Shown piece after piece: positions 1,725-13,451 of a DNA stretch of 13,451 bases. The stretch spans positions 1 through 13,451 of the forward strand of contig CALNBC010000151.1 in the NCBI GenBank assembly GCA_937874755.1. The letters are read 5' to 3'. Below the pieces are notes generated by a model. The model worked only from the letters and a program-made list of their open reading frames with translations. It was not told where the DNA came from and did no database searches. Both the position numbers and the translations under genes were made by a program. This stretch comes from an uncultured Clostridia bacterium (GTDB taxonomy: Bacteria > Bacillota > Clostridia > Christensenellales > CALWSW01). Every line of letters starts with the position of its first letter. Position 1 is the first letter of the stretch.

Positions 1725-3248
1725 CTACTCTAGGGCGATTCCGCCCTTATCCCAAACTTCGCACATGCCGTTAACTGTGGCAATCCAGCTCTTGTAACGA
1801 TTCAGGTACTTTTCGGTGTTTTCTTTAATAGGCTCAAATACCTTGGAAGTATCGATCATGCTTGCAAACGCTTCTTCATAGCTCTTAAAGATACCTGCGC
1901 CTACACCCGCGGCTATGCTGGCACCCATTCCACTCATCTCGGTCACATTGACGATTTCGACGGGTACGTTCATAACATCAGCAAACATTTGGCTCCAATA
2001 CGCGCTCTTTGCGCCGCCTCCAGCAAGCCTGAGCACGGGAATTTTCGCTCCTTGCTCGAGAAGCATGTCGAAATTGCGCTTATGCTCAAAAGTGATGCCT
2101 TCAAACAGAGCGTGTATAAGTTCGGTGAAACTGTTGCTGGAGTGTATGTTGCTGAACATCGCTCTACCATAGGGATGTGCATTGGGCGTTCCGATGTAAG
2201 GCAGATAGATGACGTTCGTTCCGCCGGGTCCTATGAGTGCGGCTTGCTCTGTAAGGTAATCATATATGGACTGATTCTTTGCAGCAATGGTGTCCTTTAG
2301 TAGCGGGCCGAATTGCTTTACAAACCACTCCAGGTTACCGGTCGAAGTTGCTCCACTGTTAAGCGTGAGAATTTTGCCTCCTACAGCAAATACTTGCGTA
2401 GACGTGGCGTTTTTAAAAAATCTATCGGTGACGATTTCGTCAATGCTCCAGGTTCCGACAATAGCGCAACCGTATCGTTCGTCCACGACACCACAGCCGA
2501 TAGCACCCGCGGCTACGTCCATCATGCCTGCGCAAACGGGGGTTCCTTCTGCCAGACCGGTAAGCTCGGCCACTTCTTTGGTAACCGTTCCAACGATGCT
2601 GTCGCTTTTCTCTGCAAGAGGCGCTACCTTTTGCATCATTTCCGGCACTCCGAATAGATCAAAAAGCTCTTGTGAGTATTCCCTTGTCTGCATATCCAGA
2701 AATGCAGCTCCAGATACGTCATTCCTTTCCTGCATTTTATTGCCTGTCAGTTTACAGTTGATGTAGTCCTTGCAGGCGCATATCCAATCTGTGTTTTCGT
2801 ATACTTCGGGTTCATTTTCTTTGAGCCAGCGAGCGATTACTGCAGGTTGGAAAGAGAATATCGGTGTATTGTTTATTTCAATTATCCGCTTGCTTTCGGG
2901 TGACTTTGACAATCTGATAGCAACCTCAACAGCTCTGTTGTCATTAGATCCGAGGGCAGGGTAGCTAGGCTTGCCGTCCTTGGCTACAAAAAAAGCACCG
3001 TTACCGTAGGCGCAACAACCGATTCCGCCTATATCCGCAGCATCGATTCCTGCACTCGCAATTACTTCGCGAATGCAGTCAACTGTTTTCTCCCAAAGCG
3101 TTTCTGCATTGGCTTCAACCCAGCCTACATGCGGCGAGTTGACTTCAAACGAGCGCCTTGAAACCGCAACCTCATTCCCATTGGTATCAAAAAGAACCGC
3201 TTTTGAATTGGTCAAACCATTATCAATGCTTAAAAGGTACTTTGTCAT
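1725..3248 (-). CDS. FGGY-family carbohydrate kinase (L-xylulokinase-like)
   Basis: It is a cytosolic ATP-dependent sugar kinase of 507 aa, the usual family length. Both FGGY domains are visible: the N-terminal phosphate-1 loop IDNGLTNSKAVLFD (residues 8-21), catalytic base Asp244 in GMMDVAAGA, an adenosine-side GTWSIDE segment (265-271), and the C-terminal LAGGGAKSAYW (408-418) and GMGASIAAG (440-448) nucleotide motifs. Overall it resembles L-xylulokinase/LyxK-type members more than glycerol kinase, but FGGY specificity cannot be read from motifs. The ribosome binding site AAGGAG is 7 nt before ATG. It is third in the RLP-SDR-kinase cluster, 245 nt after the dehydrogenase gene, a gap containing a strong hairpin, so it may be expressed at a different level or have its own weak promoter. 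It is inferred to phosphorylate the keto-sugar or keto-acid made by the SDR before RLP action. Confidence 0.88.
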   Translation of the reverse strand: MTKYLLSIDNGLTNSKAVLFDTNGNEVAVSRRSFEVNSPHVGWVEANAETLWEKTVDCIREVIASAGIDAADIGGIGCCAYGNGAFFVAKDGKPSYPALGSNDNRAVEVAIRLSKSPESKRIIEINNTPIFSFQPAVIARWLKENEPEVYENTDWICACKDYINCKLTGNKMQERNDVSGAAFLDMQTREYSQELFDLFGVPEMMQKVAPLAEKSDSIVGTVTKEVAELTGLAEGTPVCAGMMDVAAGAIGCGVVDERYGCAIVGTWSIDEIVTDRFFKNATSTQVFAVGGKILTLNSGATSTGNLEWFVKQFGPLLKDTIAAKNQSIYDYLTEQAALIGPGGTNVIYLPYIGTPNAHPYGRAMFSNIHSSNSFTELIHALFEGITFEHKRNFDMLLEQGAKIPVLRLAGGGAKSAYWSQMFADVMNVPVEIVNVTEMSGMGASIAAGVGAGIFKSYEEAFASMIDTSKVFEPIKENTEKYLNRYKSWIATVNGMCEVWDKGGIALE

Positions 3249-3433
3249 CTCGTTTCTCCTTTATTCTTTTGTGAATCGAAGTACGTATTTTTCATACACT
3301 GTTTTGACATGCGTATATGATATGTGCACTATTCTGTGTTGTTGTAAAGGTTTGTGTGAGTGTTGTAGTTAGGAATTATGTTTGTTAGTTGACTGGAGTT
3401 TTGAATTTACTTTGGTCAATATTTGCAACCTAG

Positions 3434-3478
3434 AGCCGAGTTTTTGACCTGCATTGGTGCAATGTCAAAAACTTGGCT
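3434..3478 (-). repeat. Long intercistronic inverted repeat between SDR and kinase genes
   Basis: Arms of 15 bp (AGCCGAGTTTTTGAC at 3434-3448 and GTCAAAAACTTGGCT at 3464-3478) match with one mismatch. A second small stem, ATTG/CAAT, sits inside the loop. It begins 16 nt after the dehydrogenase stop codon in the direction of transcription. No T-tract follows on the minus strand, so it is not a standard terminator. It could stabilise the upstream mRNA, mark a processing site, attenuate kinase expression, or bind a protein as DNA. The rest of the gap (3249-3433) shows no convincing promoter. Confidence 0.6.
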
Positions 3479-3493
3479 TCAGGCCGTATTCTA

Positions 3494-4261
3494 TTAGTCC
3501 ATACGCGCGCCTGTTACGCAGAGGGTATCACCGCTGACATAACTACTCATGTCGGACGCTAAGAATAGTACCGCTTTTCCCACTTCAGAAGGGTCACCCA
3601 TTCTCTGCATTGGTATTTTGGAGAGCTTCTTCTTTACAGTTTCTTCATCAAGTGTTGCATAAGTTCGCTTTATCATGTCGGTCTCAATGGTTCCGGGTGC
3701 AACAGCGTTCACGCGTATGCCGTAAGGTCCTAGAGTCTTAGCGGCAAATTTGGTCAGAGCGATAACTCCAGCCTTGGATGCACCGTATTCCGGCCCCGTG
3801 CTTCCTCCCGTTATACCCGCGATAGATGACATGTTGATTATCGAGCCAAATCCCTGTTCTTTCATTACTGCACTTACGTATTTGAGAGTCAGAAAAACAG
3901 AACGCAGATTGACATTTAGCACGAGATCCCAATGCTCGCTTGTGGCGGTCTCGAGTGTATCCATGAATGCTATACCGGCATTGTTTACGAGGATGTCTAT
4001 CTTACCCCATTTGTCCATGCAGTGCTTTACTGCATTCTGAATGACAGTTTCACTGGATACGTCGCCAACGATGAATTCCACTTCGACGCCAAACTCTTCA
4101 AGTTCTTGCTGGGTCTGTTCGCCGTTTGCATCTTTCTTTATGTCGATGATAGCCATGCCCTTGCATCCGGCCTCGGCAAGCTTAATAGCTATGCTTTTGC
4201 CTATGCCCTGGGCGGCTCCGGTGATCAGTACAATCTTGTCTTCCAACGATACATTGTACAA
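3494..4261 (-). CDS. Short-chain dehydrogenase/reductase (SDR family)
   Basis: It is a classical SDR of 255 aa. Visible motifs are the Rossmann TGAAQGIG (residues 14-21), Asp40 ending the second strand (favouring NAD(H) over NADP(H)), Asp67 in GDV, NNAG (93-96), and the catalytic tetrad Asn118, Ser146, Tyr159 and Lys163 (YGASK). PG plus TIETDM follow at 189-195. It oxidises or reduces a hydroxyl/keto group, and the context suggests a sugar, sugar acid or polyol. The start is TTG at 4261: a stop codon lies three codons upstream in frame, and the nearby ATG at 4254 is out of frame. The ribosome binding site is unusual (AAAGGAG at a 12-nt gap, with a weaker AGAAGG closer in), so translation may be modest. 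It is the second gene of the cluster, 82 nt after the RLP gene. Confidence 0.88.
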   Translation of the reverse strand: MYNVSLEDKIVLITGAAQGIGKSIAIKLAEAGCKGMAIIDIKKDANGEQTQQELEEFGVEVEFIVGDVSSETVIQNAVKHCMDKWGKIDILVNNAGIAFMDTLETATSEHWDLVLNVNLRSVFLTLKYVSAVMKEQGFGSIINMSSIAGITGGSTGPEYGASKAGVIALTKFAAKTLGPYGIRVNAVAPGTIETDMIKRTYATLDEETVKKKLSKIPMQRMGDPSEVGKAVLFLASDMSSYVSGDTLCVTGARMD

Positions 4262-4282
4262 AACCTTCTATGCTCCTTTCGA

Positions 4283-4311
4283 GGCAGTGCACCTAATAAA
4301 GATGCACTGCC
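4283..4311 (-). repeat. Intercistronic hairpin between RLP and SDR genes
   Basis: A perfect 9-bp stem, GGCAGTGCA (4283-4291) with TGCACTGCC (4303-4311), has an 11-nt loop. On the minus strand it lies about 30 nt after the RLP stop codon and only a few nt before the AAAGGAG of the SDR gene. There is no U-tract, so a mRNA stabiliser or processing hairpin is more likely than a terminator. Confidence 0.6.
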
Positions 4312-4343
4312 CTGGATAAAACCTTTGGTCTATACGGTCGCGA

Positions 4344-5657
4344 TTAGTTAGTGAGCTCGAAAATCGACTTGTTGGGATTGTATATGCCCCAGATATCGAT
4401 GGAGGCCTGCAGTTCGGGATGCTCCTTGGCATACTCTTCGAGGGGAATGTCTTTCTTCCATGCCTCTGCGGCCTGATGCAGAGCATCTACGCCCGCCTTC
4501 ATGCCCATGGGGTGAGCGTGCATTGCAGCGCCTGCGCCTAGCATAACGTCGGGGCCGAGGTCGCTCAGTATCTGAGGAACAAGTCCTGGATACAGGCCTG
4601 CTGCCGGGCTCGGGAAGCAATTCTTCAAGCCGTTGAAGTCGGAGAGCATACCCTGGGCAGCCCTGACGTACCTGTCGGGCAGAGAGGGAACCTTGCCGTA
4701 GGAGCAGGGGTACACAACCATGTCTGCGCCTTCGAGACGGCTGAACTTACCGAATACGATGGAGGAGGACATGCCGCTGTCGGGGCTCACATAGCCTGCA
4801 CCTGCATAGCATGGGTGTGAAAGCAACGGAACATTGATCGACTTGTCTGCTGCCAATGCGCCTAGAACGCCGTAGCCTGTTGCATGAGAGTTGAGCATGA
4901 GCGCTTGTGCACCCATTTCAATAGATCTATGGGCTTTCTCAAACACCCTGTCCTGACGGTCGGTGATGTTGGGCACATAAATCGCCCTGTGACCGCTATC
5001 CTTGAAAGCCCTGTCGCTTGCCTTAAGGCAGGCTTCAAGCCTCTCATAGTAGGGAGCATGGGCGGGATCGGCGATAAGTTCATCATCCTTAATATAGTCG
5101 ATTCCAGACATTGCAAGATTATAGAACTGTCTTTCGATAACGTCAACAGGTATCCCTGTGCAGGGTTTGATCATCGCCAGAACCGGAGGTCTGTCCATGC
5201 AGCCAACCAATTCACGTACACCCTTAACACCAAACTGAGGACCTGCAAATCCGTCGGTGAAAGATTTTGGGAATTCGAGGTCAAGTAGTTTGAGGTTGCC
5301 GCTCATGGAAATGTTGCCGAAAACAGTAGAAAGAAGCTGGGGAAGCTGCTGACCTATGTTCTTCCATGGGAAAGCGACCTGCATGATGAAGGTTCTTTCT
5401 TTTGTGGGACAGGAGAGCTCATATCCGGGTATGTTATGCACCGCGATAACGCGGCCAACGTGACCCCTTCTGACATCGTCGGTTTCATCGGGAACGCGCA
5501 TCCATGTTCCGGTGGTCTGCTCGACAGCTATTGCACCCGCACGCATAAGAACGTCGGTCGTCTCAGCTTTTGCATAGTATGTTGCAACTATGAAATCGTC
5601 CATGTTCAGCGATTCTCGCTGACAGAAAATAATTGGGTCATAATGGGCTTTTGGCAT
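4344..5657 (-). CDS. RuBisCO-like protein (form IV RLP), probable sugar-acid phosphate decarboxylase/isomerase
   Basis: This 437-aa protein has the two-part RuBisCO large-subunit layout: an N-terminal ferredoxin-like domain (to ~150) with VATYYAKAE and EQTTGTW (46-52), then a TIM barrel. RuBisCO active-site positions that I can align by eye: IKP Lys164 (equivalent to Lys175) is kept, and YIKDDE 188-193 keeps the carbamylated Lys201 with Asp203 and Glu204. Lys177 becomes Cys166, His294-Arg295 becomes His281-Pro282, the loop-6 GK is kept at 303-304, and the Ser-Gly-Gly phosphate loop is Ala-Ala-Gly (352-354). The C-terminal glycine loop reads GAGAAMHAHPMG. With the metal site intact but the RuBP-binding residues changed, it is a form IV enzyme, not a CO2-fixing carboxylase. 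Known RLPs act as enolases, isomerases or decarboxylases/transcarboxylases, for example on oxo-isoapionate phosphate. AAGGAGG 7 nt before ATG fixes the start. It is the first gene of the cluster. Confidence 0.92.
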   Translation of the reverse strand: MPKAHYDPIIFCQRESLNMDDFIVATYYAKAETTDVLMRAGAIAVEQTTGTWMRVPDETDDVRRGHVGRVIAVHNIPGYELSCPTKERTFIMQVAFPWKNIGQQLPQLLSTVFGNISMSGNLKLLDLEFPKSFTDGFAGPQFGVKGVRELVGCMDRPPVLAMIKPCTGIPVDVIERQFYNLAMSGIDYIKDDELIADPAHAPYYERLEACLKASDRAFKDSGHRAIYVPNITDRQDRVFEKAHRSIEMGAQALMLNSHATGYGVLGALAADKSINVPLLSHPCYAGAGYVSPDSGMSSSIVFGKFSRLEGADMVVYPCSYGKVPSLPDRYVRAAQGMLSDFNGLKNCFPSPAAGLYPGLVPQILSDLGPDVMLGAGAAMHAHPMGMKAGVDALHQAAEAWKKDIPLEEYAKEHPELQASIDIWGIYNPNKSIFELTN

Positions 5658-5738
5658 CTTTGATCCTCCTTGAGAATTGAATAGAAGTGTGAGGGGTCTC
5701 TCTCAATATTCAGTAAACGGGATATTGATTATGCGCAA

Positions 5739-5767
5739 ATGATAACCCTATTTATTGCATATGTCAA
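5739..5767 (-). promoter_or_regulatory. Promoter of the RLP operon
   Basis: On the minus strand, TTGACA (5762-5767) is a perfect -35 box. It is followed by a 17-bp spacer and TATCAT (5739-5744), five of six bases matching the -10 consensus. The predicted start point near 5732 gives a leader of about 75 nt ending in AAGGAGG (5665-5671). Confidence 0.75.
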
Positions 5768-5783
5768 GGGTGCATTTCAGAAA

Positions 5784-5811
5784 ATTTATAAATCGATTTA
5801 TAAATCGATTT
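5784..5811. promoter_or_regulatory. 22-bp perfect palindrome, probable operator of the RLP operon
   Basis: The half-site ATTTATAAATC and its exact complement form a perfect 22-bp palindrome at 5784-5805. A 12-bp unit, TTTATAAATCGA, is repeated in tandem, so a second overlapping palindrome is centred on TTATAA further along. The first palindrome is centred about 62 bp upstream of the predicted RLP start point, just outside the -35 box, a usual position for an activator that touches RNA polymerase. The YhfZ-type regulator encoded upstream is the natural candidate ligand; this is inference. Confidence 0.65.
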
Positions 5812-6015: not shown

Positions 6016-6570
6016 TTATTCAATTATAGAGAACTTGCTTTCGTCTCTGGGTCTTTGGTCAGGCCAAGCATTTTTGCTTTTGCCAAGTGCGATTGATAAC
6101 ACGGGCTCATATCCTTCCGGCACGTTGAATAGGTTTTTATACTTTTCGTTCAGTTCGGGGTATTCATTGAGCATAATAATTGAGTACCCGATTACAACTG
6201 AACCAATTTTAAGATCCGTTGCTGCCAGTGCGACGTTTTCAATCGCCATGGCGCAGTCTAAACGGGAGAACTGATTCCCGTGTGGTGCAACATACGCGAA
6301 GATTACGGCGGGAGCGTTAAAGAAAAGTTTGTAATCATCTGTTAAAGGCTTTTTACTTATTGGTCGGGCGTCTTTGTATACTCTGTGAAAATCCGCATTG
6401 AACTCATCCAATAATGCTTTGTTTGTCACAGCTACAAAATGCCAGGGCTGCAAATAGTGTGCAGTTGGAGATTTTATAGCGCAACGAAGCAAATAGGTCA
6501 GCGTTTCTCTATCGATAGGTTCATCGGTATACGAGCGGATACTGCGCCTGTCAAAAATGGCATTAAGCAT
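6016..6570 (-). CDS. Nitroreductase family protein (FMN-dependent)
   Basis: With the start at 6570 (AAGGGAG 6 nt before ATG) this is a 184-aa protein, typical of the short nitroreductase subfamily. A longer in-frame start at 6657 would begin upstream of the predicted transcription start and is rejected. The N-terminus carries the FMN-binding RRSIRSYTDEPID (residues 8-20) and then SPTAHYLQPWHFVAVTN (34-50). A later LKIGSVVIGYS segment and a C-terminal VLSIALGKSKN complete the fold. Such cytosolic homodimers reduce nitro groups, quinones, enones or flavins with NAD(P)H. Its own promoter and terminator make it a single-gene unit. A link with the RLP cluster is only positional. Confidence 0.85.
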   Translation of the reverse strand: MLNAIFDRRSIRSYTDEPIDRETLTYLLRCAIKSPTAHYLQPWHFVAVTNKALLDEFNADFHRVYKDARPISKKPLTDDYKLFFNAPAVIFAYVAPHGNQFSRLDCAMAIENVALAATDLKIGSVVIGYSIIMLNEYPELNEKYKNLFNVPEGYEPVLSIALGKSKNAWPDQRPRDESKFSIIE

Positions 6571-6648
6571 GGTGTACTCCCTTATGTTAAATTTCGTGCG
6601 TAAACATACAGCCAATGAATATACGAAATTCTGTTTTTGCAACTTTAG

Positions 6649-6724: not shown

Positions 6725-7657
6725 TCAATAAGAGGGCATTGTTTTGCCGTCTATTACTTCTTTCTGAATTCTTTTAACTGATTCACAGTCTATTATGTCC
6801 CTAAGGAGCATCCTGTATTTTGCGTTTTTTCCCATTACTACCAACACAGCTTTTTCTGATTCATGGATGATTTCCCGCATTTGGGGAGTTTGTTCGATGG
6901 TATGCACCTTACGGTTATACTTTTCGATAAGCTCGTCCCAATTCCAGATAGTTGCGTTCACTTCGCCGGATTCCAGCTTAGCGAATATCTCTGAATACTT
7001 GATTTCGACAAGTTCAACGTCGTTATCTTTACAGACAGTATGTATGATGTTCGGGTGGTCATAAGAGTGTTTATCCACTGCTATCTTCATGCCGTCCCTT
7101 ATACGGGTCTCATTTTCGTCGGAAAACACGAGACCGCTTTTACCAATATAAGAATTTTCCCCGAAATCAAACAGGATCTCGAGCTTCGGAAACTCCTTTT
7201 TGGCGAGCTCTGCAGCCATTCTTGAGCATATAACAAAATTATTTTTAGCGTCCACAAGGCGCTTAATCCTGATGGCTCCTCCGCGCACGAACGATATGTT
7301 AAAGGGTACAGCAGCCCTTTCAAACTGCTTGTAAAGCGCGGTGGCAAGACCTTCAAAACGCTTTGTATAGGGAAGTGGCATTGTACATGAAATCCAGTCG
7401 TTGCCAGCCAATTTCCAAAGTCCCACCCGGTTAATATCTGTTATGATGGTACCTTGATGGCCATGGGATTGAAGCGTAATCTCGCCTGAATCCTCGAGCA
7501 TTTTGAGCGCCATTTGAACCGTCCCTGCGCCTACGCCCAGCTTTGTGCAAAGATCGCTGATATTAGGCAACCGCGCACCCTTCTCAAATTCTACAAGTAG
7601 ATTGGCCACAGCAATAGCAGATTCGCCCTGTTTGGTTAGGAATTTCGTTTGAACCAT
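6725..7657 (-). CDS. YhfZ-type GntR-like transcriptional regulator
   Basis: This 310-aa cytosolic regulator has a winged-helix N-terminus: RLPNISDLCTKLGVGAGTVQ (residues ~29-48) is the helix-turn-helix, followed by ALKMLEDSGEITL and a wing reading SHGHQGTII. The remainder, beginning LAGNDWISCTMPLPYTKRFE, resembles the YhfZ C-terminal domain, a periplasmic-binding-protein-like fold that senses a small molecule. In E. coli YhfZ is encoded with the yhf cluster of unknown metabolic role. Here the gene lies upstream of the nitroreductase and RLP operons on the same strand, and the palindrome at 5784-5805 is a fitting target. The ribosome binding site AAAGGA is about 12 nt from ATG, rather far. The family call rests on sequence likeness from memory; the regulon is inferred. 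Confidence 0.78.
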   Translation of the reverse strand: MVQTKFLTKQGESAIAVANLLVEFEKGARLPNISDLCTKLGVGAGTVQMALKMLEDSGEITLQSHGHQGTIITDINRVGLWKLAGNDWISCTMPLPYTKRFEGLATALYKQFERAAVPFNISFVRGGAIRIKRLVDAKNNFVICSRMAAELAKKEFPKLEILFDFGENSYIGKSGLVFSDENETRIRDGMKIAVDKHSYDHPNIIHTVCKDNDVELVEIKYSEIFAKLESGEVNATIWNWDELIEKYNRKVHTIEQTPQMREIIHESEKAVLVVMGKNAKYRMLLRDIIDCESVKRIQKEVIDGKTMPSY

Positions 7658-7832: not shown

Positions 7833-8318
7833 TTATTCTTTATAAGGCCCCACTAGCTCCAGTATGACGCCAAGCTTCTCTGTGGTATCGAAATAAGCGC
7901 AACAGGTGGGACCGTTGATTTTATTTATCCAATGGCTGGAACAGAGTAGGGGAGCACCAAACTTCTCGAACACAGGGTAATAAGCTTTAACATCCTTCAC
8001 GCGAAAGCCGAGATGATGAATGCCTTGACCGTGTCTTTCGTAAAATTCAGCATGGAATGGAGAATCAACAACTTCCATAAGTTCTAGCTCAAGCTCATTC
8101 CAGAAAAGCTTAGCTATCTTTATGACAAAGTTGACAGATTCGCCGCGGAAAATAGCTCCTTCTGTATTAAGCATACGATATTCCCTAAAGCCTTGTTGAC
8201 CTGTGAAATGCAAGTATGCAGGTGCGGCTTTTTCTACATCGTCAACCATGATACCGAGCTGGCAAGGTTGAGGAAGGTGTAGTTCTTCAAGTGCTTCTTT
8301 GCTGATTAAACTGCTCAA
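7833..8318 (-). CDS. VOC (glyoxalase/epimerase-type) metalloprotein
   Basis: This 161-aa protein shows two beta-alpha-beta-beta-beta modules. Candidate metal ligands sit where the vicinal-oxygen-chelate superfamily places them: Gln20 (CQLGIMVDDVEKA, replacing the usual His), Glu82 (LELELMEV), His101/His102 (GIHHLGFRVKDV) and Glu154 (VILELVG). Members include lactoylglutathione lyase, methylmalonyl-CoA epimerase and isomerases. The IHHLGF and KLGVILELV segments are closest to epimerase or lyase types, but the substrate cannot be read. The start is TTG at 8318, supported by GGAGG 5 nt upstream; the next in-frame ATG would cut off the first ligand. The gene stands alone with its own promoter. 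It could supply an epimerisation step to the RLP pathway, but only proximity supports that. Confidence 0.75.
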   Translation of the reverse strand: MSSLISKEALEELHLPQPCQLGIMVDDVEKAAPAYLHFTGQQGFREYRMLNTEGAIFRGESVNFVIKIAKLFWNELELELMEVVDSPFHAEFYERHGQGIHHLGFRVKDVKAYYPVFEKFGAPLLCSSHWINKINGPTCCAYFDTTEKLGVILELVGPYKE

Positions 8319-8750: not shown

Positions 8751-9518
8751 CTAAGCGCGATAGTTGCTAGGAGTCTTGCCGTAAGTCTTTTCGAACAAGT
8801 CATAAAAATGGGTCATGTTGTGATAACCGCAAAGCTTAGCGATTTTGTATACCGGAAGGTCTGTTTCTGCCAGCAGGCGGGCAGCGCGGTTTAATCTTAT
8901 TTCGCGGGAAAGCACCGAGAAGCTTTTACCGCATTTACTTCGGATAAATTTGGCGAGCGTATTGGGGTGGTAATAGAAGTGTGCTGCGGCGGATTTGAGA
9001 GTCGCTTCCGAACTGTGGTCAAGTATGTACTTTTCTATTTCTTCTATGCTCAGCTCCTTGGGCTTGCATTGACGGGAGGCATACTCGCTAACGGCTTCCT
9101 CCAGCAGACGCATCGCTAATCCAGAAACGACCGCGCAATACCCTGCTTTTTGGCGCTCGAGCTCCTGGTGCATCGCGTCAAGCACGAGTAGCCCTTCGCT
9201 GCTCAGGCAATGAAGCATAAAACCCTTCGGCGCTTCACCGGATTTGATATGCCTTGAGGGGTCAAAGGGAAGTAGGTATACCTTTCCGTCGCATCGCGGG
9301 TCGACGGCAAACCTAGCCACCCCCGCGACGAGGCAGTATTGCCCTGCGGGCAATTCGATAGTTTTACCTGAATATGAAATATACGCACACCCGTCATAGC
9401 AAAGTATGAGGTACGCTTTGCTGCTTTCACAGGTATAGTACTTTCCCGCAGACACTTGTGAGTTTTTGACTATTTCGTCCTTATAGTCCTCCATGTTAGA
9501 GTAATATGCGGGTTGCAT
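8751..9518 (-). CDS. AraC-family transcriptional regulator
   Basis: The start is placed at 9518: AAGGGGGGG lies 6 nt upstream and the predicted promoter is at 9546-9574, so the longer frame to 9578 would begin upstream of the transcript. The 255-aa protein has an N-terminal cupin-like sensor (strands such as YLILCYDGCAYISYSG and LPAGQYCLVAG) and a C-terminal pair of helix-turn-helix motifs in the last ~95 residues: ATLKSAAAHFYYHPNTLAKFI, then LPVYKIAKLCGYHNMTHF followed by the hallmark FEKTYGKTPSNYR. Such proteins bind direct repeats and activate nearby genes in response to a small ligand. It is divergent from the MerR-type gene, so the two may share control of the right-hand redox genes. No terminator is seen after the stop codon. 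Confidence 0.85.
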   Translation of the reverse strand: MQPAYYSNMEDYKDEIVKNSQVSAGKYYTCESSKAYLILCYDGCAYISYSGKTIELPAGQYCLVAGVARFAVDPRCDGKVYLLPFDPSRHIKSGEAPKGFMLHCLSSEGLLVLDAMHQELERQKAGYCAVVSGLAMRLLEEAVSEYASRQCKPKELSIEEIEKYILDHSSEATLKSAAAHFYYHPNTLAKFIRSKCGKSFSVLSREIRLNRAARLLAETDLPVYKIAKLCGYHNMTHFYDLFEKTYGKTPSNYRA

Positions 9519-10588: not shown

Positions 10589-10655
10589 AAGCCAGGAATG
10601 TGATTCAAATATGGCATAGCATTAAAAAGAATGTGTCAAATGATATGTTTATCTC

Positions 10656-10685
10656 AGGGACAATGTCGATTACGACATTGTCCCT
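10656..10685. terminator. 13-bp perfect stem-loop: MerR terminator and/or operator
   Basis: AGGGACAATGTCG (10656-10668) and its exact complement (10673-10685) flank an ATTA loop, 68 nt after the MerR stop codon. The tail TCTTT is only partly T-rich. Each arm itself contains a small palindrome, GACAATGTC and GACATTGTC, 15 bp apart, which looks operator-like. The downstream promoter's -35 box begins 4 bp later, so it may serve both roles. Confidence 0.6.
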
Positions 10686-10688
10686 TCT

Positions 10689-10716
10689 TTGTCAAAAACG
10701 TAGAATTGAGTATAAG
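10689..10716 (+). promoter_or_regulatory. Promoter of the cytochrome/redox lipoprotein operon
   Basis: TTGTCA (10689-10694), a 16-bp spacer and TATAAG (10711-10716) each match consensus at five of six positions. The predicted leader is about 30 nt, ending in AGGAGGA before ATG 10753. Confidence 0.55.
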
Positions 10717-10752
10717 TTTGCGGAAAACGCAATAAAAAGGAGGAGGATTAAC

Positions 10753-12369
10753 ATGCGCAAGAAAAGTCTGCTCATTCTGCTGTGCTGTCTGCTGGCCGTT
10801 GCCATGCTGGTAGGCTGCGCGGCTGAAACGGTCGACGCCCCCGAGGAGACGCCGGCAGTTCAGCCGGAAGAAACCGCTGCACCTGTCGAAACAGCGGCTC
10901 CCGTCGAAACGGATACTCCGGAAGCTACACCCGAAGCGGAAGCGCCTATAGAGGAGAATTATCCCGGCGAAGGCGCCATAATCGAGATGTTTGACGATAT
11001 GGAGCAACGTGCCGTAGATTATGCCCCCAAGGTAATCACCCTGGACAACGGCGTTCGCATCCAGCGCACCCCTAATGACGGCGGTGGCTACTTCCATCGC
11101 CCGGGTGCAAGTGCGTCCTACAACACCTATTACCTCAACGCCGACAATCGCGGTTGTGCATCTTGCCACGGCAATTTGGTCGATCTGCTCACTACAATGG
11201 ATTATGAGCACCTTAGCTATGAAAACAACTACGGGTTCGACATGACCGTGCTTGACTGCCTCATTTGCCACACGCACGGCGAAGGCTACGTTTGGCAGAT
11301 GTACGAGTTTGGCTCACTTATACACGGCATCCACTCCAGAGACACATTCACAGGCAACTGCATGTCATGCCACAGCGCCACCGAAAACGGCGAAGGTATG
11401 CTCCTTTGGGAGGAAGCAAAGTACGATGTGTTGCAGGGCATTGGCTCTGTGGCAAACGTCCAGGGTGAGTTCACCTACGACCAGAACGTGCTCACCGATA
11501 CAGACGACGTGTTCTTTGCAAGCTGGATGTACACCTCCGAGGACTATAAGCGCAACGGCGCCGCCATGGCAGATGTTCCCCTCGACGAGGAACTGTTCAA
11601 CAACTGGACCATCAGCGTCACCGGCTGTGTAGACAATCCCTTTACCATAACTCTGGCGGAGCTTATCGCGCAGGCTCCTTCCGAAAAGCAAATAGTCACG
11701 AACCAGTGCGTAATGAACTCCAACGGCGGTCCCTATATTGCCAACGTCGAAATCACAGGCATACCGATTTCTTGGCTGCTCGAAAAAGCCGGTGTTCAGG
11801 ACAGCGCCAAGGCGTTCATGAGCAGAGACCACGCTGACTGGGCGCGTGGCAGTCTGCTCAGCGTCACAGAGCAATTCGGCAGCTATTTGGTTTACGAAAT
11901 CAACGGTCAGCGACTCCCTTGGGGTCAGGGCTACCCTCTGACTACATACAACCCCGGCACCGCAGCGCCATCCTTCATCCGCAGGGTTTGCGAGATTGAG
12001 GTCGTCGACACTGAGGACATCAAGATATTCGACGGCTGGTACACTGCCGACGGAACCCCCTTCAATAAACCTAACGCGGGTTTCTACTACTTCAGCGAGG
12101 GTCAAATCATCGAAGCGGGCAAGCCCTACACCTTCGAAGGTTTCGCCCATGCGTTCGACAAGCAGATTATAGCGATGGAATTCTCCCTAGATCGCGGAGC
12201 GACCTGGACCCGCTTCGACACGTCTGATTCAGACCTGAGCAAGTGGATTTACTGGTACTTCACCTATACCCCCGAGGATCCTGGCGCATACGTCATATCT
12301 GTGCGCGCGGAGACGGCAGACGGAATGATAACCACATTGCCCGACGAAGTAATGTTCAACGCCGAATAA
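10753..12369 (+). CDS. Tri-haem cytochrome c / sulfite-oxidase-like fusion lipoprotein
   Basis: The ATG at 10753 follows GGAGGA at a short gap and starts a lipoprotein signal peptide (MRKK, hydrophobic core, lipobox LVGC with Cys22). An in-frame extension to 10600 would bury that signal and is rejected. Of 538 aa, residues ~25-68 are a Glu/Pro/Ala/Thr linker with repeated APVET units. Residues ~130-210 hold three haem c sites: CASCH (135-139), CLICH (169-173) and CMSCH (203-207), with spare His (153, 175, 191, 194) for axial ligation. Residues ~280-420 resemble the molybdopterin domain of sulfite oxidases, with Cys319 (TNQC) as possible Mo ligand but without the usual AGNRR after it. Residues ~455-538 form the Ig-like dimerisation domain (MEFSLDRGATWTRF). 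It is probably anchored outside the membrane, passing electrons between haems and a substrate site. The substrate is unknown. Confidence 0.82.
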   Translation: MRKKSLLILLCCLLAVAMLVGCAAETVDAPEETPAVQPEETAAPVETAAPVETDTPEATPEAEAPIEENYPGEGAIIEMFDDMEQRAVDYAPKVITLDNGVRIQRTPNDGGGYFHRPGASASYNTYYLNADNRGCASCHGNLVDLLTTMDYEHLSYENNYGFDMTVLDCLICHTHGEGYVWQMYEFGSLIHGIHSRDTFTGNCMSCHSATENGEGMLLWEEAKYDVLQGIGSVANVQGEFTYDQNVLTDTDDVFFASWMYTSEDYKRNGAAMADVPLDEELFNNWTISVTGCVDNPFTITLAELIAQAPSEKQIVTNQCVMNSNGGPYIANVEITGIPISWLLEKAGVQDSAKAFMSRDHADWARGSLLSVTEQFGSYLVYEINGQRLPWGQGYPLTTYNPGTAAPSFIRRVCEIEVVDTEDIKIFDGWYTADGTPFNKPNAGFYYFSEGQIIEAGKPYTFEGFAHAFDKQIIAMEFSLDRGATWTRFDTSDSDLSKWIYWYFTYTPEDPGAYVISVRAETADGMITTLPDEVMFNAE

Positions 12370-12387
12370 GCGGAAAGGAGGCAAATT

Positions 12388-13451
12388 ATGAAAAAGAAAA
12401 CAATAGCTGCCGCAGTTGCAGGCGTTGCGAGCGTATCCGCACTTGCAGGCTGTGCGCCCGCGCAGACAAACGATGCCGTAGCCCCCATCGCTCCAGTCGA
12501 GGACGCTTCCGCCGCCGAAGTAGCGGCAGAACTGGAATCCGGACTGATAGTCGAGGAGTCGGAGGCGGTTGCGTACAACAAAATCGCAAATGTACAAGGC
12601 GAATTTCGCTACAACCAGAATGTGCTCACCCCGTCGGACAAGGTGTTCAGCCTCTTCGGAACCGCTGCCACCGCCATGTGCGCTAAGCCCGGCTTCGCAT
12701 TCGGCGAAGTCGATTACGAGGATTACTATCTGAACATCAACGGCGGCATGGAGAAGGTTTCCACAATATCCCTCAAAGAGATAAGGGAAAACGGACAAAA
12801 CAGCATCATGAAATGCTCCTGCAGCACCAGCGGCTCCGTCGCAAATGCTGAGATTACAGGTATGCCTTTGGCGGATGTCATCGAGATGGCGGACATAGGC
12901 GAAGAGTACAATACCGTTATCGTCCGTGGCTCGGATGGCTACGGCAAGCCCCTGCCCTTGAAGCTCGCTACCGAAAACGGTGCGATGCTGGTGTATGCGG
13001 TTGGCGGCGAGGGACTCACCCCTGAAAACGGCGGTCCCGTACAGCTGTGGATGCCCGGGCAAGTCGCGTCCTACTTCACCCGCCAAGTAACCGAAATAGA
13101 GCTCATCGCCGCAGACGAAGAGCCCGAGCTGGACGCCGCAAGGCCTGAACAGCGCGCCAAAGTCAGCATTGCCAACCAGTTCGGCGAAACGGTATTTAAC
13201 GTAGGCGACCTGTTGACATTCGAAGGCTATGCCGACGACTGCGGCAGCACTGTCGCCGCCGTGGAATTCTCCATGGACGGGGGTGAGACGTGGACTGCTT
13301 GCGCAGTCGATAGCGCCACAGCAGACAAGTGGGTCTATTGGTACTTCGGTTATGTTCCCGAAGCCGCCGGCACGTACAAGCTCGATGTTCGCGCCAGAAC
13401 CGCAGACGGCACCGTATCCCCGTTGTCTTCCAGCGTGATTTTCAACGTCCA
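12388..13451 (+). CDS. Haem-less sulfite-oxidase-like lipoprotein, paralogue of the upstream gene (3' end outside window)
   Basis: AAAGGAGG 6 nt before ATG sets the start, 18 nt after the preceding gene, so the two are co-transcribed. The frame stays open to the window end (354 codons visible). A lipoprotein signal (MKKKTIAAAV..., lipobox ALAGC, Cys22) is followed by a short linker. The protein is a clear paralogue of the upstream one: ANVQGEFRYNQNVLT (67-81) matches its ANVQGEFTYDQNVLT, and KWVYWYFGYVPEAAGTY (314-330) matches KWIYWYFTYTPEDPGAY. It lacks any CxxCH. The region aligned with the possible Mo-ligand Cys319 reads MKCSCSTSGSVANAEITG; Cys143 is the best equivalent, with a two-residue deletion. 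The C-terminal Ig-like domain (VEFSMDGGETW) reaches the window edge, so only a few residues may be missing. It may be a catalytic partner or a substrate-binding relative without haems. Confidence 0.8.
   Translation, partial: MKKKTIAAAVAGVASVSALAGCAPAQTNDAVAPIAPVEDASAAEVAAELESGLIVEESEAVAYNKIANVQGEFRYNQNVLTPSDKVFSLFGTAATAMCAKPGFAFGEVDYEDYYLNINGGMEKVSTISLKEIRENGQNSIMKCSCSTSGSVANAEITGMPLADVIEMADIGEEYNTVIVRGSDGYGKPLPLKLATENGAMLVYAVGGEGLTPENGGPVQLWMPGQVASYFTRQVTEIELIAADEEPELDAARPEQRAKVSIANQFGETVFNVGDLLTFEGYADDCGSTVAAVEFSMDGGETWTACAVDSATADKWVYWYFGYVPEAAGTYKLDVRARTADGTVSPLSSSVIFNV

Follow-up and report, generated by a model that had tools for sequence, protein, structure and literature searches.

A form IV RuBisCO-like protein encoded with an SDR dehydrogenase and an FGGY kinase in a Clostridia operon that fits no RLP pathway we found described

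The window, a 13,451-nucleotide stretch of DNA from an uncultured Clostridia bacterium, carries an operon for a form IV RuBisCO-like protein (RLP), a classical SDR dehydrogenase, and an FGGY carbohydrate kinase. The operon fits no described RLP pathway that we found; the probable role of its RLP is to rearrange a keto-sugar or keto-sugar acid in phosphorylated form. A literature search, which covered titles and abstract openings and left most subscription papers out of reach, returned no description of an RLP-SDR-FGGY operon. The accessible part of one review names few RLP activities: enolase, isomerase, decarboxylase, and transcarboxylase (PMC6302742). Once assigned, an activity for the present clade would bridge RuBisCO and the known RLPs.

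The RLP gene (4344 to 5657; 437 amino acids) has an ATG start codon preceded by AAGGAGG and is followed after 82 nt by the SDR gene (3494 to 4261; TTG start, 255 amino acids, with TGAAQGIG, NNAG, and YGASK motifs) and, after a further 245 nt containing an inverted repeat, by the gene for a kinase of FGGY subfamily K1 (1725 to 3248; 507 amino acids), all on the reverse strand. Because of the 245-nt gap, we regard cotranscription of the kinase gene with the other two as likely rather than established; the corresponding gaps in two related loci, L004 and L011, are 31 and 37 nt. Upstream of the RLP gene is a sigma-70-like promoter, TTGACA-17-TATCAT (5739 to 5767, reverse strand), which matches at 11 of 12 positions, in a window with 13 sites of this class against a shuffle mean of 11.3, i.e., with no enrichment overall; terminator and promoter scans of the window gave roughly the levels seen with shuffled sequence. 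Farther upstream, the gene for a YhfZ-type GntR-like regulator (6725 to 7657, reverse strand; 310 amino acids) encodes a protein that exceeded the NF041241 cut-off (319 bits versus 260) and scored 230.2 bits against Pfam YhfZ_C. The earlier note had described a form IV RLP with an intact KDDE motif, an SDR, and an FGGY kinase with YhfZ upstream, and profiles and alignment bore this out. Its statement that no transporter, lactonase, or DUF1537 gene is visible holds for the 11 window proteins scanned, none of which matched Pfam or NCBIfam profiles for these families, but transporters (GPH, galactitol-family, and MalK-type) are present near relatives.

A 24-bp imperfect palindrome, CAATATCCCGTTTACTGAATATTG (5704 to 5727, reverse strand), occurs once in the window's genome. 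It is clear in five of the six YhfZ-bearing loci of the RLP clade and weak in the sixth, and it was undetected in the six clade loci that lack YhfZ. This recurrence makes it a candidate for the operator at which YhfZ would act.

The RLP scored above the cut-offs of both Pfam RuBisCO families (RuBisCO_large, 130.3 bits versus 30.1; RuBisCO_large_N, 38.2 versus 20.7), and its metal site is kept as K190-D191-D192-E193. We took RuBisCO residue numbers and roles to apply to the aligned RLP positions (the G403 column was excluded owing to a shift in the RuBisCO row, and for H327 we rely on an alignment segment that contains a one-residue gap). On this basis, the base K175, K201, D203, E204, H294, and the first-phosphate-site residues T65, W66, G381, and G404 are kept, as are E60, N123, and loop-6 K334, all three of which differ in the MtnW row. 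K201, D203, and E204 are retained while T173, K177, R295, H327, S379, and G380 are changed, as in form IV proteins; with K177, R295, and H327 replaced by C, P, and Y, respectively, and T173 by M, the full carboxylase active site is not present. The loss of R295 and H327 removes the second phosphate site, so that a monophosphate substrate is expected. Of 18 RuBisCO active-site positions, the clade has 12 unchanged; the MtnW row matches at 9 of the 18, the OiaX row at 10, and an unassigned Roseibium RLP from the OiaX clade at 13. Across the 71 rows of the clade and wider clade, position 177 is always C except for a single S. K334 is shared by all 11 clade-A rows, by OiaX, and by 59 of the 60 rows of the wider clade; the MtnW row has S at this position, and the Mariluticola row has R.

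Profiles and phylogeny both place the RLP outside the curated isofunctional groups, which supports the earlier note: it fell below the cut-off of each curated model that it matched and lies in its own clade, clade A (support, 100/100), apart from OiaX, which clusters with S. meliloti and Roseibium RLPs at 100/99. The best profile was PRK09549 for MtnW (357.6 bits against a cut-off of 409); a second MtnW model gave 306 against 513.6, and OiaX gave 167.8 against 700. The nearest solved folds are also MtnW (2oem and 4nas; 34 to 36% identity, TM 0.83 to 0.92). A Mariluticola RLP (L087) linked to mtnK and mtnA is very divergent (branch, 3.62). The clade comprises Clostridia, one Synergistaceae MAG, and two Thermodesulfobacteriota MAGs, with archaea within the wider clade, and it has a cultured carrier, Lachnotalea glycerini DSM 28816 (L008).

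Among 391 genomes of the class, a search with the RLP gave high identity only in the window's own genome (eight others had 41 to 45%), and a search with the SDR found no other genome at E <= 1e-70; we therefore assessed conservation in named contigs. Contigs of equal length shared between the RLP list and the kinase or SDR list were few by eye (RLP-kinase, 13451, 16532, and 40563; RLP-SDR, 13451, 6403, and 53857), and we discounted this comparison as too weak. An FGGY kinase gene is present in the fetched stretches of all 12 clade loci, a count that ignores shared ancestry. The exact RLP-SDR-FGGY trio recurs in four of these loci (the window, L004, L011, and L073), each time with YhfZ, which supports only in part the conserved neighborhood that the earlier note asked about; the kinases of the remaining loci come from other subfamilies (three distantly related FGGY subfamilies in all). 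In the wider clade, a PTS and a GlpA-like FAD dehydrogenase accompany the RLP in six of seven Lachnospiraceae-type tree rows (L014 to L017, L019, L023, and L082) and also in L061, L075, and L081, which are outside the tree; FGGY with a GlpA-like FAD dehydrogenase is found in L140, L163, and L165 to L168. L014, a 7.7-kb contig, is the one row of the seven without the PTS and GlpA-like pair.

The SDR scored 224.1 bits against Pfam adh_short_C2, and an acidic residue in the motif IID after strand 2, to which we applied the rule that such a residue denotes NAD+ preference, suggests NAD+ as cofactor. Among the best 25 of 237 models, it passed two broad subfamilies (PRK07231, glucose 1-dehydrogenase, 230.6 versus 215; PRK12826, FabG-like, 222.3 versus 222), and it missed KduD (TIGR01832, 193.4 versus 338.85) and the gluconate 5-dehydrogenase type (PRK08213, 192.3 versus 279). 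The kinase matched FGGY_N (199.8 bits) and FGGY_C (77.7 bits) but passed no NCBIfam FGGY cut-off (XylB TIGR01312, 255.4 versus 380.25), in contrast to its likeness to L-xylulose/3-keto-L-gulonate kinases, which lies in the L-xylulokinase names given to several K1 relatives by JGI. Downstream steps are suggested by L073, from a relative of the same taxonomic order, where the set is extended by a class II aldolase, a second SDR (SDR2), and a pair of 2-hydroxyacid dehydrogenases. Homologues of SDR2 (66.8%) and of the dehydrogenases (63.4% and 61.9%) are encoded on two other contigs of the window's genome (C197 and C272), together with a class II aldolase 32.3% identical to that of L073. FBA-type class II aldolases are encoded in L073 and L137; the best solved relative of the former is YdjI (185.1 bits; KbaY, 180.3), an enzyme that prefers ketose-1-phosphates with a charged end. 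The window itself has no aldolase gene, and among the 12 clade loci aldolase probes matched only L073.

We tentatively favor, at somewhat under even confidence, a pathway in which the SDR and kinase yield a ketose-1-phosphate-like keto-sugar (acid), which the RLP enolizes as an epimerase or isomerase and an aldolase cleaves. In such sugar (probably sugar-acid) catabolism, the SDR would oxidize the hydroxyl adjacent to a terminal CH2OH to a ketone, and the kinase would phosphorylate that terminal carbon, giving a compound with a C1 phosphate, C2 ketone, and C3 hydroxyl, whose other end may bear a carboxylate. Using Mg2+ and a carbamylated K190, the RLP would then abstract the proton at C3, in the manner of RuBisCO acting on RuBP, and the enediolate would be reprotonated, making the enzyme a 3-epimerase or a carbonyl-shifting isomerase. 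The aldolase would release dihydroxyacetone phosphate and an aldehyde (acid), to be handled by the 2-hydroxyacid dehydrogenases, and YhfZ would repress the operon via the candidate operator. SDR with FGGY and PTS or FGGY with the GlpA-like enzyme are unlike pairs that would both give a ketone beside a CH2-phosphate, and we count this shared predicted product in favor of the ketose-1-phosphate-like reading. According to the available part of one source, misprotonation of the RuBisCO enediol gives xylulose-1,5-bisphosphate (PMC9833046), so epimerization is within the chemistry of the fold; the accessible part of another describes an R. rubrum RLP, 5-methylthioribulose-1-phosphate isomerase, that acts on a ketose-1-phosphate (PMC6302742), a likeness drawn from the description of that enzyme and not from its sequence. 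As for the earlier proposal of a sugar acid, the 2-hydroxyacid dehydrogenases and YdjI-like aldolase of L073 make it plausible, but the transporters of relatives also fit sugars or polyols.

Several findings count against an epimerase or isomerase. E60, N123, and K334 are kept, and K334 is dispensable for enolization alone. The aldolase of the window's genome is only distantly similar to that of L073, the best 2-hydroxyacid dehydrogenase matches in the L004 and L011 genomes are 32% and 35%, and no operator motif was found beside the SDR2 gene (contig C197). K1-like kinases occur with SDR2-like SDRs in stretches without an RLP (L121, L123, L124, L129, and L130; four of the five with an FBA-like aldolase, by eye), and FGGY, PTS-IIC, and GlpA were all absent from 12 Moorella/Syntrophomonas-type wider-clade loci. 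Aldolase-II-family genes near other RLPs, e.g., in L015, whose product passes AraD models, and L064, may encode epimerases.

The retention of K334 speaks for the main rival, which we consider somewhat unlikely. Here the SDR would convert an aldonate, which may be branched, into a beta-keto acid, the kinase would phosphorylate this acid, and the RLP would decarboxylate it via an enediolate to a ketose phosphate. Precedents are OiaX (3-oxo-isoapionate-4-phosphate decarboxylase, a form IV RLP) in apionate catabolism, whose dehydrogenase-kinase-RLP logic we take to be common to the window operon, and, in another fold, 3-keto-L-gulonate-6-phosphate decarboxylase. A distant kinase relative, P0201 (34%), is named L-xylulose/3-keto-L-gulonate kinase at its source, the L015 kinase (36%) adjoins genes for L-ribulose-5-phosphate 3- and 4-epimerases that scored over cut-off, and in the outer clade the L164 RLP gene adjoins those for a DUF1537-type kinase and a PdxA-family dehydrogenase, with a further DUF1537 match in L163. 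Against decarboxylation, OiaX is remote by tree and profile score and keeps R295, and a DUF1537 probe (one tblastn query) gave no match in any of the stretches fetched for the 12 clade-A loci. The OiaX locus examined (L084) has a four-carbon acid sugar kinase, presumably of the DUF1537 type, which the window lacks; this supports in part the earlier suggestion that the substrate differs from that of OiaX.

A doubtful reading makes the RLP an MtnW-like enolase of a 2,3-diketo sugar 1-phosphate in deoxy- or thio-sugar salvage, with a HAD protein as the subsequent phosphatase in some loci. MtnW (2,3-diketo-5-methylthiopentyl-1-phosphate enolase) shares its fold, K-D-D-E site, and lost second phosphate site with the window RLP and supplies its top profile; four of the 12 clade loci (L005, L006, L008, and L010) carry HAD_2-type genes, assigned by Pfam for the first two, and the kinase's best solved relative is autoinducer-2 kinase (LsrK), whose substrate is a diketone. 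We did not keep autoinducer-2 processing as a proposal outside this reading. The missed MtnW cut-offs, the kept E60, T65, N123, and K334, and the SDR and FGGY partners set the RLP apart from MtnW, and it was the only mtn-family match among the window proteins.

It is improbable that the three genes form no single linear pathway, with the kinase transcribed separately: the long gap with its inverted repeat, the swapping of FGGY subfamilies between loci, and the SDR and kinase relatives found in stretches without an RLP favor this, but FGGY is universal in the clade loci, the gaps in L004 and L011 are short, and the loci share the operator-like motif. Also a long shot is the idea that the clade is a monophosphate counterpart of RuBisCO in which K334, E60, and N123 serve genuine CO2 or carboxyl chemistry, whether carboxylation, decarboxylation, or transcarboxylation, with a ketose-1-phosphate-like sugar acid as substrate and within an undescribed pathway. 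An RLP acting as a true carboxylase or transcarboxylase on a keto-sugar monophosphate seems very improbable, since despite the kept active-site positions and an RLP with transcarboxylation/hydrolysis activity noted in the accessible part of a review (PMC6302742), K177 and T173 are replaced, the second phosphate site is lost, and the neighboring genes look catabolic.

These readings are directly testable thanks to the conserved operator-like site, the candidate pathway genes elsewhere in the window's genome, and the cultured L. glycerini strain. Two other window genes were dropped as pathway members: that for a VOC protein (7833 to 8318), whose matches to the VOC proteins of relatives had E values of 2.5e-4 or worse, and a nitroreductase gene (6016 to 6573), which gave no match at the threshold used. 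The latter, absent from the earlier note, lies between the YhfZ and RLP genes; in L010, a distant nitroreductase-family gene follows that of the RLP.

The window holds a real and conserved RuBisCO-like protein (RLP) system that fits no assigned activity group and adds a variant to the RLP superfamily. The gene calls of the earlier note were borne out, with the RLP (4344-5657), SDR (3494-4261) and FGGY kinase (1725-3248) genes lying where it placed them, on the minus strand, their domains exceeding Pfam cut-offs, and the YhfZ-type regulator (6725-7657) passing its curated model (319 versus a cut-off of 260). Upstream of the RLP gene are a strong ribosome-binding site and a promoter-like TTGACA-17-TATCAT sequence. 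As contig C151, the window belongs to a metagenome-assembled genome of 1.87 Mb (72% complete, 432 contigs). G023, a genome of the same order, has as its RLP locus that of Christensenella sp. UBA1431, loci L003 and L073 yielding the same matches to the window genes as each other (L-numbers denote loci of relatives, each seen as a fetched stretch).

In a profile search, the RLP fell below the cut-offs of all six NCBIfam models that it matched, namely, PRK09549 (357.6 bits; cut-off, 409), MtnW (306; 513.6), type III RuBisCO (210.8; 497), PRK04208 (198.6; 438), OiaX (167.8; 700), and PRK13475 (105.6; 489). A search of ~5.8 billion proteins gave 7996 scored candidates, the best 120 of which included 54 close proteins (55-100% identity, at least 563 bits), the next step down being 497 bits. 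In a 55-row tree, the window RLP, those of L004-L013 and L073, and three listed proteins formed one clade (support 100/100; clade A); OiaX and its kin formed a separate group (100/99), separated from the window clade by a 98/95 branch, and the only MtnW row sat on a long branch at an unresolved fork. The AlphaFold fold was confident (pLDDT 88.8), and the closest solved structures were those of MtnW (34-36% identity).

We probed the 12 clade loci (the window and 11 of 79 named loci) by tblastn on fetched stretches, with all 12 covered. Conservation of the four genes together held in part: an FGGY kinase was found in 12/12 loci (a raw count, uncorrected for shared ancestry), but the window SDR type was found in just four (the window, L004, L011, and L073), always with YhfZ, which is present in six (these four plus L005 and L006). 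The kinases fall into three subfamilies with mutual identities of about 23-31%: K1 (window, L073, L011, and L004), K2 (L005, L007-L010, L012, and L013), and K3 (L006, with second copies in L007, L012, and L013). The RLP is the constant element of these loci, the kinase having been exchanged. Other partners are HAD (L005, L006, L008, and L010), VOC (L007 and L012), a sugar-binding-domain regulator (L007, L008, and L010, confirmed by Pfam in L008), and an RpiR-type regulator (L012); the VOC and RpiR-type genes of L012 both have homologues in L013. The transporters adjoining the RLP sets are a GPH symporter in L004, a galactitol-family permease, below its cut-off, in L011, and a MalK-type ABC system in L012.

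Eighteen active-site positions, numbered as in RuBisCO, were compared on an alignment that includes 11 clade-A rows (all but L013). The window RLP keeps 12 (E60, T65, W66, N123, K175, K201, D203, E204, H294, K334, G381, and G404) and has substitutions at 6 (T173M, K177C, R295P, H327Y, S379A, and G380A). The first 10 of the kept residues are invariant in all 11 rows, as is the cysteine at the K177 position (C166), and K334 is lysine in 59 of 60 wider-clade rows. By comparison, the single MtnW row keeps 9 and lacks E60, T65, N123, and K334, all of which the window RLP has, whereas the OiaX row keeps 10, with K334 and R295 but without E60, W66, and N123; a Roseibium RLP that groups with OiaX keeps 13.

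From these kept and altered residues, the RLP site would be expected to take one phosphate and to be capable of enolisation, with the loop-6 lysine (K334), which in RuBisCO serves carboxyl chemistry, retained. Two dissimilar two-step routes, one with the SDR followed by the FGGY kinase and the other with a PTS or FGGY kinase followed by a GlpA-like enzyme, would each yield a ketone adjoining a CH2-phosphate, which is the half of RuBP that reacts. Given one phosphate site and intact enolisation residues, the simplest reaction would be removal and return of the C3 proton, giving epimerisation or a carbonyl shift, and aldolase cleavage would follow. Retention of K334, E60, and N123 speaks for possible handling of a carboxyl group, which makes a decarboxylase the main rival; true CO2 chemistry is a less probable alternative. 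The sugar-acid substrate proposed in the earlier note is plausible, the substrate inference coming wholly from neighbour genes.

YhfZ loci carry a 24-bp palindrome 5' of the gene that heads the RLP or SDR set. Using leave-one-out matrices, we compared the best site per locus with 40 simulated sequences and found that it exceeded all 40 in five of the six YhfZ loci (the window, L004, L005, L006, and L073) and was reached by 1 of 40 in the sixth (L011). In the six loci without YhfZ, 10 to 40 of the 40 simulations reached the best site, and a second L006 site, 5' of the HAD gene, equalled but did not exceed the top of its 40 simulations (17.7). Across the entire window genome, a pattern close to the window site, with up to three mismatches allowed, matches at a single place, 5704-5727, just downstream of the RLP promoter-like site. 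It is thus placed like a repressor site and is a candidate operator that YhfZ would bind. Just upstream of the RLP promoter are AT-rich overlapping palindromes, AAATCGATTTATAAATCGATTTATAAAT (5784-5811, minus strand), which are not represented in the set of palindromes detected in the examined upstream stretches of relatives.

L073 has its operator-like site at 9037, between SDR-RLP-YhfZ and a divergently oriented set that encodes a second SDR (SDR2), a 2-hydroxyacid dehydrogenase (closest structures, PGDH, glyoxylate reductase, and 2-ketogluconate reductase), a class II aldolase (best solved relative, by a narrow margin, YdjI), a second 2-hydroxyacid dehydrogenase, and a K1 kinase. In the window genome, the SDR2 homologue (66.8%) and that of the first dehydrogenase (63.4%) are neighbours on contig C197, and on contig C272 the homologue of the second dehydrogenase (61.9%) has a class II aldolase (32.3%) after it; the aldolase excepted, these identities are comparable to those for the operon genes (SDR, 63%; kinase, 56%; RLP, 74%). 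Three observations count against this set as a general rule: the L004 and L011 genomes have no close 2-hydroxyacid dehydrogenase (best, 32% and 35%), no operator was seen near SDR2 on C197, and five other stretches (L121, L123, L124, L129, and L130) combine a K1-like kinase (33-36%) with an SDR2-like SDR but show no RLP, four of these also having what by eye is an aldolase.

Within the wider clade, a GlpA-like FAD dehydrogenase and a galactitol-family PTS accompany the RLP in six of seven tree rows of the neighbouring Lachnospiraceae-type group (L015-L017, L019, L023, and L082; the exception is L014) and, outside the tree, in L061, L075, and L081. FGGY and GlpA-like enzymes accompany the RLP in L140, L163, and L165-L168, and the L166 kinase is a true GlpK (676 versus 590 bits). 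In L166 and L167, glycerol kinase and GlpA-like genes lie upstream of the RLP, and the ketose-1-phosphate expected there would be DHAP. Many syntroph loci have FGGY and a class III aminotransferase, and L164 has PdxA and DUF1537 genes. Probes for FGGY, PTS-IIC, and GlpA found none in 12 Moorella/Syntrophomonas-type loci (L020-L022, L024-L031, and L033; 4- to 21-kb stretches), whose distinct RLP neighbourhood includes PEP-hydrolase-like genes, ComB-like 2-phosphosulfolactate phosphatase genes (9/12), and UPF0261 (10/12). Among 40 genomes of one family, six hold a relative of the window SDR (53-62%), the fetched stretch lacking an RLP; all six have an outer-clade RLP elsewhere (39-44%), in G467 ~15 kb from the SDR relative. 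Two families whose tested members lack a Pfam match accompany RLPs: that of L015:8906-9931 precedes the RLP in seven Lachnospiraceae-type loci, and that of L043:11328-12404 occurs in 20 loci, mostly right after the RLP in syntroph loci.

Within the window, a nitroreductase gene (6016-6573, minus strand) between YhfZ and the RLP and a Glyoxalase_4 (VOC) gene (7833-8318, minus strand) upstream of YhfZ lack close matches in the relatives' loci. The SDR-FGGY gap holds a perfect 10-bp inverted repeat (3439-3473, minus strand; AGTTTTTGAC / GTCAAAAACT), with no terminator call on that strand. Just past the kinase 3' end is a phage-like plus-strand stretch (3-1323) with a Phage_Mu_F match (42-761) and a short open reading frame (1006-1323) that is metallopeptidase-like by eye. 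The 16 FGGY_N matches in the window genome suggest a sugar-catabolism specialist. At 10600-13451 (plus strand), two tandem lipoprotein-like proteins (mutual identity, 31%) show sulfite-oxidase-type molybdopterin similarity, SorA-like at 68 and 79 bits, far below the cut-off of 600; the first additionally gives multihaem cytochrome matches that fall short of the cut-off.
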